64,000 nt of DNA, taken from the NCBI RefSeq assembly GCF_018873765.1, contig NC_057925.1, positions 15,511,568 to 15,575,567 on the forward strand. Direction: 5' to 3'. The notes under the pieces are model-generated. The model ran no database searches. It was not told the DNA's origin and was given only the letters and a program-made list of their open reading frames with translations. Numbering within the stretch: position 1 is the stretch's first letter; the number at the start of each line of letters is the position of its first letter. Source of the stretch: Telopea speciosissima (lineage: Eukaryota; Streptophyta; Magnoliopsida; Proteales; Proteaceae). Made by a program: the position numbers and the translations under genes. This document shows positions 48,432-54,281 of this stretch, piece after piece.

Positions 48432-48878
48432 TTAACCAGAGATTTCTATGGCCTTGACCTCTGGTTTCTTGACTTCTTCCTTGGGGATGGTGACAGTGAG
48501 AACTCCATTCTCCATGGAAGCTTTCACTTGATCCATCTTGGCATTCTCAGGCAATCTAAACCGGCGAAGGAATTTGTCGCTACTACGATCGATCCGATGC
48601 CACTGATCATTCTTCTCTTCCTGTTCTTTGGTCCTCTCTCCATTGATCTGAAGGACTCTGCCTTCTTCAATCTCGACCTTCACTTCTTCTTTCTTCAGCC
48701 CAGGAAGGTCAGCTTTGAAGATGTGGGCTTCTGGGGTCTCCTTCCAATCTATACGGAAATTGGCAAACGCAGCAGTATCGGTGGAGAACTGAGGGCGAGA
48801 GGTTGTAAGTGAAGAGGAGAATGGGAAATCCTGGACTGGATCCCAAAACCCACCAAGGAAGCTGGGAATGATCGACAT
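48432..48878 (-). CDS. class I small heat-shock protein (sHSP1)
   Basis: An intronless gene for a 148-residue cytosolic class I sHSP, an ATP-independent holdase that forms oligomers and keeps heat-unfolded proteins soluble. The N-terminus [10 protein letters not shown] is the class I signature. The alpha-crystallin domain runs from about [19 protein letters not shown] (residues 43-61) to LTVTIP (about 129-134). It carries consensus II ([20 protein letters not shown]) and consensus I ([19 protein letters not shown]). The tail AIEISG supplies the IxI motif used in oligomer assembly. The start is the first ATG in frame. It is head-to-head with sHSP2, 5.4 kb away. TATA and a worn heat-shock block lie at about 49014-49064, with a solo LTR directly upstream. 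It differs from the other two copies most in the N-terminal arm. Confidence 0.95.
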
Positions 48879-49013
48879 TGTTTGGAGTACTCTTTGATGA
48901 CAGAGACAAATGCAGGTGAACCAAAAAGGGTAAAGATTTAGATCACGAAGTTTGGCTTGGAAACCTAACTAGTTTCTCGATCGCTTCTATGAGAATTGAG
49001 AGGGAGGTGTTCC

Positions 49014-49064
49014 AAAATTTATAGTTGAGTTGTTGAGAGAAAGAGAATTCTAGCAATTTCTCTG
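49014..49064 (-). promoter_or_regulatory. sHSP1 core promoter with worn heat-shock block
   Basis: CTATAAATTTTGG on the minus strand (49024 down) is the TATA box, about 140 bp before the start codon. About 15 bp upstream lies GAGAAATTGCTAGAATTC, aligning with the GAGAAAGTGCTAGAATGTTC block of the other two genes. Its alternating GAA/TTC units are less perfect than theirs. Confidence 0.7.
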
Positions 49065-49074
49065 GTTTTGCTTC

Positions 49075-50323
49075 TGTTGCGTCAAGAAATCGTCGAGCGG
49101 TCCTGCGAGTGCCGTCACCTGCAAGTGGACCAAGGGGTCAACAGAGAGAACCGGTGTGGTTCCGGCCTAGGGCTCTCCGATGCCAAAGTTAGATCTCCTA
49201 GCGCAAATAGATGAATAGTGATTATTCAGTATGAGATTAGATGTCCCTGATGGGGTTGTGTACCTTGCCTTTTATAGTAGCATATGGCGATGTGGAGAGT
49301 CCCAGTTTGATGGCGATTGTGCCGTTGAGTGGATAGAGGCCCTGGGTAACGGGGCTCTATCCTGATTGGCCATCTCCCCGTGGGAGGGAGTGTCCTGGTG
49401 GCATCAGGATCCTTGGTGGATAGATACCCGCGTTTGGTGATAACGTCCTTGGTGCTTGAATCCGTCTGGGTGACGTGACCTCTAAGCGGCGGTCTAGAGT
49501 CCTGGTAGTGACATGTGTCTTAGCGATACGATCGGATCGTAGATGGGTAGCCTCCACCTCACGTGCCCACGATGCTGTGCCTGGGTGCAGGCCGCGCCTG
49601 GGTGAGGCCGCGCATGGATGTGTGGCCGCGCCCGCCTGGATGTGTGGCCGCGCCTAGGTGAGGCCGCGCCTGGGTGAGGCCGCTCCCCGGATGTGTGGCC
49701 GCGCCTGAGGGGTGGCCGTGCCTAGGTGAGGCCGCGCCCTGATGTGTGGCAGCGCCTAAGTGAGGCCGTGCCTGAGGGGTGGCCGCGCCTAGGTGAGGCC
49801 GCGCCTGGGGTGAGACCGCACCTCGGATGTGTGGCCGGCCCTGAGGGGTGGCCGTGCCTAGGTGAGGCCGCTCCCGAGTGGTGGCCGCGCCTGGGTGAGG
49901 CCGCGCCCTGATGTGTGGTCGCGCCTAGGTGAGGCCGCGCCTGAGTGGTGGCCGTGCCTGGGTGAGGCCGCGCCCGAGGGGTGGCCGCGCCCTGATGTGT
50001 GGCCGCGCCTAGGTGAGGCCGCGCCCGAGTGGTGGCCGCGCCTGGGTGAGGCCCCGCCCTGATGTGTGGTTGCGCCTAGGTGAGGCCGCGCCTGAGTGGT
50101 GGCCGTGCCTGGGTGAGGCCACGCCCGAGGGGTGGCCGGGCCCTGATGTGTGGCCGCGCCTAGGTGAGGCCGCGCCCGAGTGGTGGCCGCGCCTGGGTGA
50201 GGCTGCGCCTGGGTGAGGCCGCGCCCGGGTGCTGGGACCCCGGTTTGTTCCCCTTGGCTATGGAGAGGGTCGTCTGTGACACGTGGCGATCGTTGATTGG
50301 CCCGGTGAATATTGGATGTATCA
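49075..50323 (-). mobile_element. solo LTR inserted in the sHSP1 promoter
   Basis: A 1249-bp unit on the minus strand, from TGATACATCC to GACGCAACA, with the 5-bp target duplication GCTTC on both sides (49070-49074 and 50324-50328). No internal retroelement sequence is present, so it is a solo LTR. The GCATCGGAGAGCCCT and CACTTGCAGG words are typical of Ty3/gypsy Tat-type LTRs. A TATA box (TATAAAAGG on the minus strand, 49276-49268) points toward sHSP1. More than half is a GC-rich minisatellite. Confidence 0.8.
49575..50232. repeat. GC-rich minisatellite inside the solo LTR
   Basis: About 650 bp built from short units such as GGCCGCGCCTAGGTGA, GGCCGCGCCTGAGTGGT and GGCCGCGCCCTGATGTGT. The later part shows a higher-order period of 151 bp: GCGCCTAGG following GTGTGGTC or GTGTGGTT recurs at 49921 and 50072. 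Gly-, Arg- and Pro-rich open frames across it are side effects of composition. Confidence 0.9.
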
Positions 50324-50328
50324 GCTTC

Positions 50329-50420
50329 TATTGAGCTACCAGAGAGACCATGAAGCTTCCAGCAAAATAGAGACTAAAGAGAAGATGAATGGGGGGCCAT
50401 CCATCAATCGACCCCATTCT
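50329..50420 (-). promoter_or_regulatory. displaced upstream part of the sHSP1 promoter
   Basis: Beyond the LTR target site the minus strand continues with TTGCTGGAAGCTTCATGG, which contains a GAA/TTC pair in heat-shock-element spacing (50353-50362). Before the LTR inserted, this would have lain about 30 bp upstream of the sHSP1 heat-shock block. Confidence 0.45.
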
Positions 50421-51519
50421 GGAGTATTCGCTTGTGGGGTCACAATTTGGGATAATTCCTCCCCGACCCCATTTTCTCCAATTAGTGTTTGCTTGCATGG
50501 GCTGTGTGTAAAAAATTCATTAGTCGAGTAGTTCATGGTATTGATAGGGGGGATGGATCCAGCTCTTCTCCAGGGAGCTCAACGCCCAAGGGAGTGCCCA
50601 GGGGCATCCAAGGGTTAGGCTGTGCCACACACATCTTGGTGCGTGCTTAGAGATATATACGACACTGCCTAACGGCTGGATACCGCTAGGCATACTAGGC
50701 TCCTTGGAGAGGAGCTCAATCCATTGATAGGTGCAGGTAAGATGGATTTGAATCGGAACCGATCTACTCAATTGTTTATTGGTCCGGTTCTAGATCTATC
50801 AATAAGTTGTTGGTCGGATTTTAGATCTAACAATTAGGAACAGTTGGAACCGGTTATATCGGAACAAATTCTTAAGACTCAAAGCCATGAGAGCTAAGGT
50901 CAGACCCTCAATTTTTTTAGTCTTTCAATTTTGGCTGGTACCATTTGTCTAAGATGCTATTTTCCCAAAGATTTGACTGTAAATTTAAAGGTCTATTTGA
51001 GAATGTTAACTTAAGAACATACCTTAAAATAATCCTAATTTATGAGGGTGGTGATGTTCTTACTTATTACTTAATACAAAACAAGAGGTAATATAGACTA
51101 GTATTGTGATTTGAGAAAAAAAAAAATAAAGCATATCTTATGTGATTGAAATTAGAGTCTTGTTATAATATTATTAAATATATGTAGCATGTGTTAGGAA
51201 ATTTTTTCTTGAAAAAACATTTGGGGTTGCTTAGAATCTTTAATTTTAGGAATCGGAATTGGCCCACCCATTAGTTAATGGTCCTAGATCACAAGTATGG
51301 AACCGATTAGCTTTTTGTCTGGTTCTGATCCTGACCCCTTAAGATCGGAACCGTCAAGGAACTAGACCGATAACCCAGAACCGGACCAATTGACACCCCT
51401 AGTACCCGCACCTCCTTTACATGCCGAGTATGAGTATATTGCAGTCTACCTCATTTGAGGGTGATATAATTTTGTGAAATAACAAGCTCCCCTCCCAAAG
51501 GAGCTTGGATAAGGTTCTT
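50421..51519. other. intergenic, nothing recognised
   Basis: A GC-richer part up to 50800 and an AT-rich part after it. CCGGTT-type words at 50760-50870 and 51290-51400 look like worn repeats. No gene. Confidence 0.4.
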
Positions 51520-51615
51520 GTACGAGATCCATTCTCGTACGTCAGATGCCGCACAGATGGAATCCACTCACTCTCTTGAATTCCATATGTGCGGCATCTG
51601 GCGTACAAGAATGTT
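51520..51615. mobile_element. foldback repeat, CAGATGCCGCACAGATGGAAT arms
   Basis: TACGTCAGATGCCGCACAGA mirrors ATGTGCGGCATCTGGCGTAC, with a 15-20 bp loop, giving a tight hairpin-forming repeat. Confidence 0.65.
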
Positions 51616-51676
51616 TCATGTACGCCTGAACCATTATGCTTCCACAGGTTGAACATGTCCTTTATGGATCTGGCTC

Positions 51677-51857
51677 TCCTCCAGTTGTGGTGGGAGCTAG
51701 AGGGTCCAACACTCGGAAACCACCCCAAAAACAGGGGGGTTGGTCATTTCATAGGTGGGGCGCAGGTGAGACCCACCTTTGAAATGACCAGCCCACCCCT
51801 GTTTTTGCTATCGTTTAGTGGGGTTGGATCCTCTAGCCCCCGCCACAACTGGAAGAT
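51677..51857. mobile_element. foldback MITE, CCAGTTGTGG arms
   Basis: CTCCAGTTGTGGTGGGAGCT with AGAGGGTCCAAC mirrors GTTGGATCCTCTAG with CCGCCACAACTGG. The inner part (ACAGGGGGGTTGGTCATTTC / GAAATGACCAGCCCACCCCT) is also foldback. Confidence 0.7.
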
Positions 51858-51939
51858 ATCCATTTCCATCCTTTATGCACCTTTTTCTAAAACCCACCAA
51901 GCCAAAAATAATGCTCGGAATCGAACTTATCCATCATCT

Positions 51940-52263
51940 ATCTTATAAATAGGGAGGTAAAACACAAGCTAGGTACTTTACATTCAATCTCACACTCAAA
52001 CTCCCTCAAGTTATTGCTTTTTCAGCATCTTTGCTGTTGATCTGAATTTTCATTTAAGCATTGGAGAGTCTTCTAGGGCTGCATGATAGCACTTTTATTT
52101 CTAGGCCATGTTTCTATTTTAGAAATGAATTTTTATATTTCTATTACTAGGACAAATTAATTTCTAGGCAAAAAATAAATAAATAAAAAACAGAAACATG
52201 TTTGTTATGTTCAATCATTTCTGTTTCTAGAACTTCTATAAAGTTTAAAAAATACCAATGAAT
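51940..52263 (+). mobile_element. possible LTR remnant
   Basis: CTTATAAATAGGGAGG (TATA-like, about 51943) is followed at about 52060 by GCATTGGAGAGTCTTC, a word pair like that in the solo LTR and typical of Tat-type gypsy LTRs. Boundaries are not seen. Fossil, low confidence. Confidence 0.35.
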
Positions 52264-52680
52264 TACCAAAAAGTTGGTGGATGTGGAGGTGGTGCCGGTG
52301 GCGAAGATGGTGATGGTGGTAGTTGCGGTGATGGTGATGGTGATGGAGGTGAAGGTGGTGGTGGCGGTGGCGATGGCGAAGGTGGAGGTAGAGATGGTGG
52401 CGGTGGTGGTGGTGGAGATGGTGGCGGTGGAGGTGGCAGTAGTGGTGGAAGAGGTGGTGTCGGTGGTGGTGGTGGTGGTGGAGGTGGTGGTGCAGGTTGT
52501 GGCAATGACAGTAATAGAGGTGGTGATGGTGGCCGTGGAGGTGGTGGTGGTGGTGGTTGCAATAGTGACGAGAGAGGTGGAGGTGGTGGCAGTGGTGGTG
52601 GAAGTGGTGGTGGAAGTGGTGGAGATGGTGGTTGAAGTTACATTGGAGGAGGTGGTAGCGGTGGTGGTTGAAGTTACATT
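52264..52680. repeat. GGT/GAT-rich trinucleotide repeat tract
   Basis: About 415 bp of imperfect GGT, GAT, GGA and GGC triplets. All six frames stay open because of the triplet pattern (poly-Gly, poly-His, poly-Pro, poly-Val). This is a degenerate microsatellite, and none of these frames is called as a gene. Confidence 0.85.
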
Positions 52681-52935
52681 GGATGTGGTGTTTTATTTTG
52701 AACATAAAATTACTATTTTGCCCATCAAATTAACCAATTGCTCAATAAAAAGCAACTCCATCCTTATTGTTTCCTTTTATTTTTGGGATAGAGAAGCTTC
52801 AAATTGGAGCTTCTTTTTCCTATTTCTCAGCAAATTTTTTATCTTGGTTCATTTTCAGTAACAAAAAAATGAATCAGTATTAACAAACCGATTTTTCATA
52901 TTTTTTTTGTTTCCAGGATTAAAAAGAATAGAAAA
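52681..52935. other. intergenic
   Basis: AT-rich DNA between the triplet tract and the LINE end. Nothing recognised. Confidence 0.35.
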
Positions 52936-53276
52936 ATAGTGAAACAAAAATGTTACCATGCAGACCCCTAGAGGCTACTCCAGCCTCTCTGTTGTTCATG
53001 TTTTGATCAACTACAGAGAATTTTTTTTCCACCTTCAAATGATCTTGGAAGATATTCTCATTTTAGCTAGGTCTTTCATGTTAGTTTCCTTTCTTTATGT
53101 TCCAAGGAATGTCAACCACGTTGCAGACACCTTGGCTCGGAAGGCCCTGTCATGTGAATGTTTGACAGAGTGGCCACTATCCACCTCGTGGCTTCAGGAC
53201 TCGTTAAGGCCTGATGCCACTGCTTGTTCACACAGTTTATCTCAATAAATCCTCTATTTACCCAAAAAAAAAAAAC
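52936..53276 (+). mobile_element. L1-type LINE 3' end with poly(A)
   Basis: The frame contains VSFLYVPRNVNHVADTLARKALS, the last helix and His/Asp region of the RNase H domain that ends plant L1 pol proteins, and a stop at 53246. An AATAAA-containing short 3' UTR and an A-run at about 53264-53275 follow. The copy is 5'-truncated, as is usual for LINEs. The N-terminal half of the frame is worn. Confidence 0.7.
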
Positions 53277-53698
53277 AGAGCTTTATCTCGATGGGAGCCC
53301 TTTCTAACCGTTGTTTAAGAATGATTTTTAACAAACTAAATATCTGATATGGAATACTATATGTCAAAGTTAGCATCCAATTTCAACCATATGACTCAGC
53401 ATTTTTAAAGTTTAAAATATGCATTTTCAACTGTTGTTCAACATCAGCTAAAGTTATGTTTCTTAACAAGTTTTAAGATGACCTGACCCAGTTAGTTAAA
53501 TGATGATGTCGACATCTTCATGAAATTTTAGCGATCAACTAAGCTGCCACATAGTAGATGTCTGTGAGACGGACGAATGGAATTCACTCCCAAATGGGTC
53601 CCACATGAGGATTCCATCTGTATGGTTCACAGCCGTTCTCGATCCCAACTCGTAGATGTATATGTACGTCAGGGCAAAGGATGTAATGTTGGGAACTA
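53277..53698. other. intergenic
   Basis: No gene. At 53560-53650 a weak inverted repeat (GATGGAAT/ATTCCATC-like words) suggests an old foldback element. Confidence 0.35.
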
Positions 53699-53872
53699 AT
53701 CCTCTACGGTGTGCTGCTCGTAGCTGCATGTGCGGCGCAGACTAAGCAGTGCACGCAAAGTTCGCCTTACCCCTATTTAAACGCCTTGTCCAAGCGGAAT
53801 TAAGGCGGTCATTGTACACGCGGCACAATCTGCACCGCACAGACCGCTACAGGCAGCTGGGCCATAGAGGAT
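53699..53872. mobile_element. foldback MITE upstream of sHSP2
   Basis: Left end ATCCTCTACGG and right end CCATAGAGGAT pair, with further pairing inside (GTGCGGCGCAGA/TCTGCACCGCAC). Core CGCCTTACCCCT...GGAATTAAGGCGGTCATTGT matches the MITE at 45.9 kb. It ends about 410 bp before the sHSP2 start codon. Confidence 0.7.
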
Positions 53873-54030
53873 CTGTGTTGAGTAATGTAAAGGACCAGAA
53901 CCTCAGGAGATCTATGTTTACTGGCCCGTTTCAATGACAATAAGTATTTGGCTGGCTTGGGTTACGAAGCCGATGCCTAACCCACACCGAGCCCAGATTT
54001 CTGAAAGTTTCTAATGATTGGGAAAGTGCT

Positions 54031-54045
54031 AGAATGTTCATGAAA
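54031..54045 (+). promoter_or_regulatory. heat-shock element of sHSP2
   Basis: AGAATGTTCATGAAA is three perfect alternating 5-bp units (nGAAn nTTCn nGAAn), the binding site for trimeric heat-shock factor. It sits in the AAAGTGCTAGAATGTTCA block also present upstream of sHSP3, about 115 bp upstream of the TATA box. Confidence 0.85.
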
Positions 54046-54118
54046 ATCCATACGAAAACAAAAATCTAGGAAAGTACTCGAAATCCAGATTCTCGCGGAA
54101 ACTTGAAAACAAAGAGAA

Positions 54119-54166
54119 GGAAAAGCCGGGAAAGTACTGGAATCCTCCCTCTCCTGTTCTATAAAT
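54119..54166 (+). promoter_or_regulatory. sHSP2 proximal promoter and TATA box
   Basis: GGAAAGTACTGGAATCC and the CCTGTTCTATAAAT TATA region (TATA at 54159-54166) are shared almost base for base with the sHSP3 promoter. The start codon is 116 bp after the TATA box, leaving a leader of about 85-90 nt. Confidence 0.8.
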
Positions 54167-54281
54167 GCAAGAATATTGTGAAACTCCTCTGCAACGCTAA
54201 GACACAAACTAAGCATTGAGCTATTTGTGAAAAGTTCTCAGCAATTCTTTTCGATTCTAAGCAAAGCTTTAATCAGTAGAA

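Follow-up and report, generated by a model that had tools for sequence, protein, structure and literature searches.

Promoters are well known to receive insertions of transposable elements (TEs), with examples in the promoters of fly heat-shock genes and, in grape, a solo LTR at VvMYBA1. At VvMYBA1, alleles with the full Gret1 element (Ty3-gypsy), with a solo LTR and with no LTR are described (PMC10249860). In Drosophila, P elements insert into the proximal promoters of heat-shock genes and disrupt them physically, and the account of these insertions states that inserted DNA of any kind has the same impact (PMC2793543). Heat-activated LTRs of ONSEN/COPIA78 have been reported in connection with the heat response of nearby genes (PMC9780303; PMC11656987).

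The case described here, in which a solo LTR lies in the promoter of the Telopea speciosissima heat-shock gene sHSP1, is ordinary in kind. Like the VvMYBA1b solo LTR of Gret1, it is a Ty3-gypsy solo LTR lying 5' of a plant gene. The grape gene with its solo LTR is reported to be expressed with a colour phenotype, and several alleles of it are known; at sHSP1 the comparison is one of sequence, made with paralogues and not with alleles. It shares with the P-element insertions the physical disruption of a proximal heat-shock promoter by a TE, whereas the fly case as described concerns a DNA transposon in natural populations and ours the LTR of a retrotransposon next to one of several plant sHSP paralogues (PMC2793543). 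As with ONSEN/COPIA78, an LTR is linked to a heat-shock gene, but ONSEN is described as carrying an HSE, while the LTR at sHSP1 has none and lies between HSE-like sites of the host. A search of the open-licence literature found no paper that treats the sHSP1 locus or reports a solo LTR in the promoter of any plant sHSP gene, which is weak evidence of absence.

Results

Structure and orientation of the solo LTR

Positions are those of the window, the whole 64,000-nucleotide stretch of DNA that was analysed (Table 1). The LTR is 1249 bp long with TG...CA ends. It stands as a single LTR between identical target-site duplications with no internal region on either side, and its flanks are collinear with three empty paralogous sites; the exact GCTTC duplication reported by the first-pass annotation is indeed there. 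Because the PBS of its relatives comes after the LTR end facing sHSP1, the LTR runs in the direction of the gene. The opposite orientation was ruled out by the PBS and the G-rich tract in these relatives.

Table 1. Features at the sHSP1 locus (window coordinates)
Feature	Position	Strand	Remarks
sHSP1 CDS	48432..48878	-	148 aa, open ORF; Pfam HSP20, E 2.7e-30
Hypothetical LTR-initiated leader	48879..49246	-	368 nt, no ATG; putative start ~30 nt below LTR TATA
Native sHSP1 TATA box, TATAAAT	49017..49023	-	Read directly; identical in 4/4 paralogous promoters
Proximal HSE-like module, GAAATTGCTAGAA	49048..49060	-	Beside native TATA; identical in 4/4 paralogous promoters
Target-site duplication GCTTC, sHSP1 side	49070..49074	.	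Read directly
Solo LTR	49075..50323	-	U3 at high-coordinate end, U5 toward sHSP1; ends and duplication read directly, PBS of relatives
LTR TATA box, TATAAAAGG	49268..49276	-	Identical in 38/40 family LTRs including the window copy
GC-rich minisatellite within LTR	49579..50225	.	Period 33, other periods too; GC 0.76
Target-site duplication GCTTC, distal side	50324..50328	.	Read directly
Middle HSE-like module, TGCTGGAAGCTTC	50352..50364	-	Displaced by LTR; 13/13 bases same in 3/4 promoters
Distal HSE-like module, GAATACTCCAGAA	50417..50429	-	Displaced by LTR; identical in 4/4 promoters
MITE-like second insertion	50549..50722	.	174 bp, flanked by ATTGATAGG (9 bp); duplication read directly

HSE-like modules on either side of the LTR

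HSE-like sites were taken as those within one mismatch of GAAnnTTCnnGAA. The LTR sits between such sites, as proposed earlier: the heat-shock block, our proximal module, is on one side and a GAA/TTC pair (GAAGCTTC, inside the middle module) on the other. Block and pair had also been called adjacent before insertion; they do belong to the same LTR-free region, but they are 37 bp apart in the LTR-less flanks and do not abut. Similarly, the native TATA box assigned to 49014-49024 is present, with TATAAAT itself occupying the narrower interval in Table 1. The proximal module is imperfect (GAA-TGC-GAA). In the middle module the core GGAAGCTTC is the same in all four promoters, and one paralogue (L022) has a single base change outside this core. 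Through the LTR, the middle and distal modules have been shifted from ~230-300 bp to ~1.5 kb upstream of the sHSP1 start codon.

Without the LTR, three one-mismatch sites fall within ~128 bp, against an expectation of 0.06 from the shuffled rate (Poisson P = 3.5e-5, a value after the fact because this stretch was chosen for holding the three sites). Across the 64-kb window the motif is mildly in excess, with 38 occurrences vs 30.24 in shuffled sequence, and five of 100 shuffles reach 38. Inside the LTR, no HSE-like site with at most one mismatch was found, and the best three-unit site there matches 6/9 positions; within 300 bp of the ATG, a site of 8/9 or 9/9 occurs in all 21 sHSP genes scored. 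These 21 derive from 87 sHSP matches, of which 30 were made into loci and 23 of these taken for promoters after L042-L045 and L047-L049 had been set aside (five with internal stops, two partial); L031 and L038 were then dropped as the script found no start codon. Promoters of the sHSP1 type score up to 8/9, and 11 of the other 17 scored have a 9/9 site. The proximal module is the best-scoring three-unit site within 300 bp in the window copy (L020) and in L022. A reading of the ONSEN type, in which the LTR imports a heat response, was rejected on the lack of HSE-like sites in the LTR and its best score of 6/9.

LTR-free paralogues

The three close paralogues of sHSP1 (L021, L022 and L023; 93-94% protein identity) lie at C10:12.33-12.39 Mb. 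All three lack the LTR: the distal and proximal flanks abut, and the alignment passes through the insertion point. The first-pass annotation had looked to an LTR-free allele or relative, and such relatives exist as three paralogous promoters, so that the comparison is among paralogues and not among alleles or other species. Each of the four copies adjoins an opposite-strand sHSP2-type gene (L020/L025 in the window, L021/L026, L022/L024 and L023/L027), making four copies of a divergent sHSP pair on one chromosome, with the LTR in one and absent from three.

The 5.4-kb gap between sHSP1 and sHSP2 (48879-54281) contains four insertions, each of which two or more of the three paralogous pairs lack: the LTR, the MITE-like element in Table 1, an A-rich-ended repeat at ~53043-53273 and a further MITE-like element at ~53690-53881 upstream of sHSP2. 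All four are repeated in the genome. In the L021/L026 pair the gap is ~1.5 kb vs 5.4 kb in the window. L089 and L091 lack the first MITE-like element at this position, and L090 has a different sequence there; the element gave at least 59 match rows in the genome, counting its own place and both-strand overlaps, with 40 of 1130 candidates scored. Judging from this one locus, TEs may tend to collect between heat-shock genes. Across 12 fly species, a TE excess is reported in Hsp70 promoters only (PMC2793543).

The LTR family

The genome assembly searched comprises 1287 contigs with a total of 822,943,500 bases. The LTR has at least 46 matches including itself (E<=0.001; 40 of 2580 first-look candidates scored). 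We fetched 39 of the 45 non-self matches, the other six being pieces inside the minisatellite. The fetched copies are the best-scored of the 2580 candidates and no random sample, and the solo, full-length and TATA counts given here describe close relatives only. Compared with the other family LTRs examined (810-1035 bp), the window copy is the longest of the 40. PBS sequence directly follows U5 in 12 of the 39 fetched copies, and a G-rich (polypurine) tract precedes U3 in 15, an arrangement in keeping with Ty3/gypsy elements of the Athila/Tat type. Ten of the 39 are solo LTRs with exact 5-bp duplications on both sides, and in two more the flanking duplications differ at one position.

In one relative with the same LTR (L019), a 4-kb internal piece encodes RVT_1, RT_RNaseH followed by RVT_3/RNase_H, and rve, which gives the order RT - RNase H - second RNase H - integrase. 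Dual RNase H has been described for some plant Athila/Tat elements (PMC9040795). Taken from domain order and not from a tree, the lineage name Athila/Tat type is applied to what we class as a high-copy Ty3/gypsy family with dual RNase H. In the same relative, the one looked at, short tandem repeats (repetitive frames) come after the integrase, at 3035-3716 of L019. On contig C9, another LTR of the family (L034, 171-1029) lies ~470 bp downstream of an sHSP gene and in the same direction; a PBS comes next, so this copy is a 5' LTR and not a solo LTR.

Age of the insertion and divergence of sHSP1

The tree branch of the window LTR is 0.013, tenth of 40 from the shortest, and sets an upper bound on its age among the sampled copies. 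It has four private changes in 649 columns vs a mean of 6.2 in the others, and for five full-length relatives the divergence within the LTR pair is 0.011-0.038 (K2P). Synonymous distances from sHSP1 to its paralogues are 0.15-0.19, and the gene branch has ~0.1 synonymous changes per site as counted by hand. An insertion older than the gene duplication was rejected on these figures. Given the short LTR branch in comparison, the insertion is most likely later than the sHSP duplication, and the paralogues would never have been hit. The LTR is likewise too young for most protein changes, as its branch of 0.013 falls short of the synonymous ~0.1 of the gene branch.

sHSP1 differs from its three paralogues at 22-25 of 444 coding bases, with dN/dS of 0.17, 0.14 and 0.21. 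Residues 15, 79, 97 and 101 of sHSP1 are changed from a state that the other 20 paralogues share (one gap at 15). Pairwise counts by hand place ~8 nonsynonymous and 9 synonymous changes on the sHSP1 branch vs 2 and 11 between L021 and L022; as a sign of relaxed selection on this branch, the nonsynonymous excess is not significant (P 0.12). The four changed residues are a possible sign of relaxed constraint, which would be older than the LTR.

TATA box and leader of a hypothetical LTR transcript

The LTR was earlier noted to carry a TATA box ~390 bp upstream of the sHSP1 start codon, which agrees with TATAAAAGG reading from 49276 to 49268 and the ATG at 48878. A chance TATA was ruled out by its identity in 38 of the 40 copies examined. 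For the whole 368-nt leader, absence of an ATG is seen in 0.4% of mononucleotide shuffles, compared with 9% for the U5 part alone and 7% for the host part alone. The U5 part also has no ATG in 29 of the 39 other copies, so this half of the ATG-free leader is mostly a family trait.

Discussion

We propose that a Ty3/gypsy element with Athila/Tat-type pol entered the sHSP1 promoter ~50 bp upstream of its TATA and was afterwards reduced to a solo LTR. In the ancestral state, still seen in the three paralogues, three HSE-like modules stood within ~130 bp. The LTR leaves one imperfect module near the TATA, with the other two ~1.25 kb further off behind a partly GC-rich, HSE-free block. If the modules bind HSF, as we infer, weaker binding at the promoter would reduce heat induction of sHSP1. 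From the arrangement of the locus, we consider the chance that module separation weakens heat induction to be a little better than even, and physical separation is judged the likeliest effect in view of the fly precedent as described (PMC2793543). As a secondary effect, the LTR TATA may provide a weak additional start upstream, and transcripts with its ATG-free leader could be translated. The two effects differ in odds, since separation follows from anatomy and LTR-driven transcription needs an unsilenced LTR. Two points speak against a role for separation: the retained proximal module and native TATA, the same in four copies, may suffice, and distal HSEs can engage through promoter DNA bending, as has been described (PMC2871787). 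Each of the three modules has one mismatch, and in L022 the middle one is weaker again, so that the middle module may not be needed.

Plant LTRs are commonly silenced, which argues against the LTR being a working alternative promoter, with transcripts that start near 49246, cross U5 and the native promoter and yield partly heat-independent sHSP1 protein. Its sense orientation, widely shared TATA and ATG-free leader speak for such a promoter, yet the missing ATGs in U5 are mostly a family trait. Of the private changes of this copy, 1 of 4 is C>T/G>A, whereas the 39 others pooled have 154 of 241; the difference is not significant (Fisher P 0.14) and hints only weakly at low methylation. Overall this reading seems unlikely. 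A neutral insertion, with the proximal module and native TATA enough for sHSP1 to be induced like its paralogues, would suit the identity of both elements in the four copies, the open frame and the low dN/dS values, but the paralogues keep the displaced modules too, bar one base in L022, and the proximal module reaches 8/9 where many other sHSP promoters scored have a 9/9 site. We regard neutrality as unlikely.

Methylation of the LTR could also spread the ~50 bp to the TATA and silence sHSP1 altogether. The LTR offers 104 CG and 90 CHG methylatable sites, and the four sHSP1-specific residues with their nonsignificant nonsynonymous excess point the same way. Against this, the LTR is too young for most of these protein changes, its private changes include few of the methylation type, and CpG is not depleted in it (observed/expected 0.81 vs 0.40 in host flanks), making complete silencing very improbable.

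Weakened heat induction through module separation, the reading we prefer, might also combine with LTR activity. sHSP1 would then be a two-promoter gene, with basal heat-independent transcripts from the LTR TATA carrying a translatable ATG-free leader and a residual heat response from the weakened native promoter, a combination that we hold to be decidedly doubtful. The LTR-free paralogues provide an internal control for the effect of heat-shock module separation on plant heat induction, and the locus, a clean natural experiment, makes it possible to ask whether a stress gene can come under the control of a sense-oriented solo LTR. If the two-promoter arrangement is true, one copy of a four-copy divergent sHSP pair would have moved toward constitutive expression.
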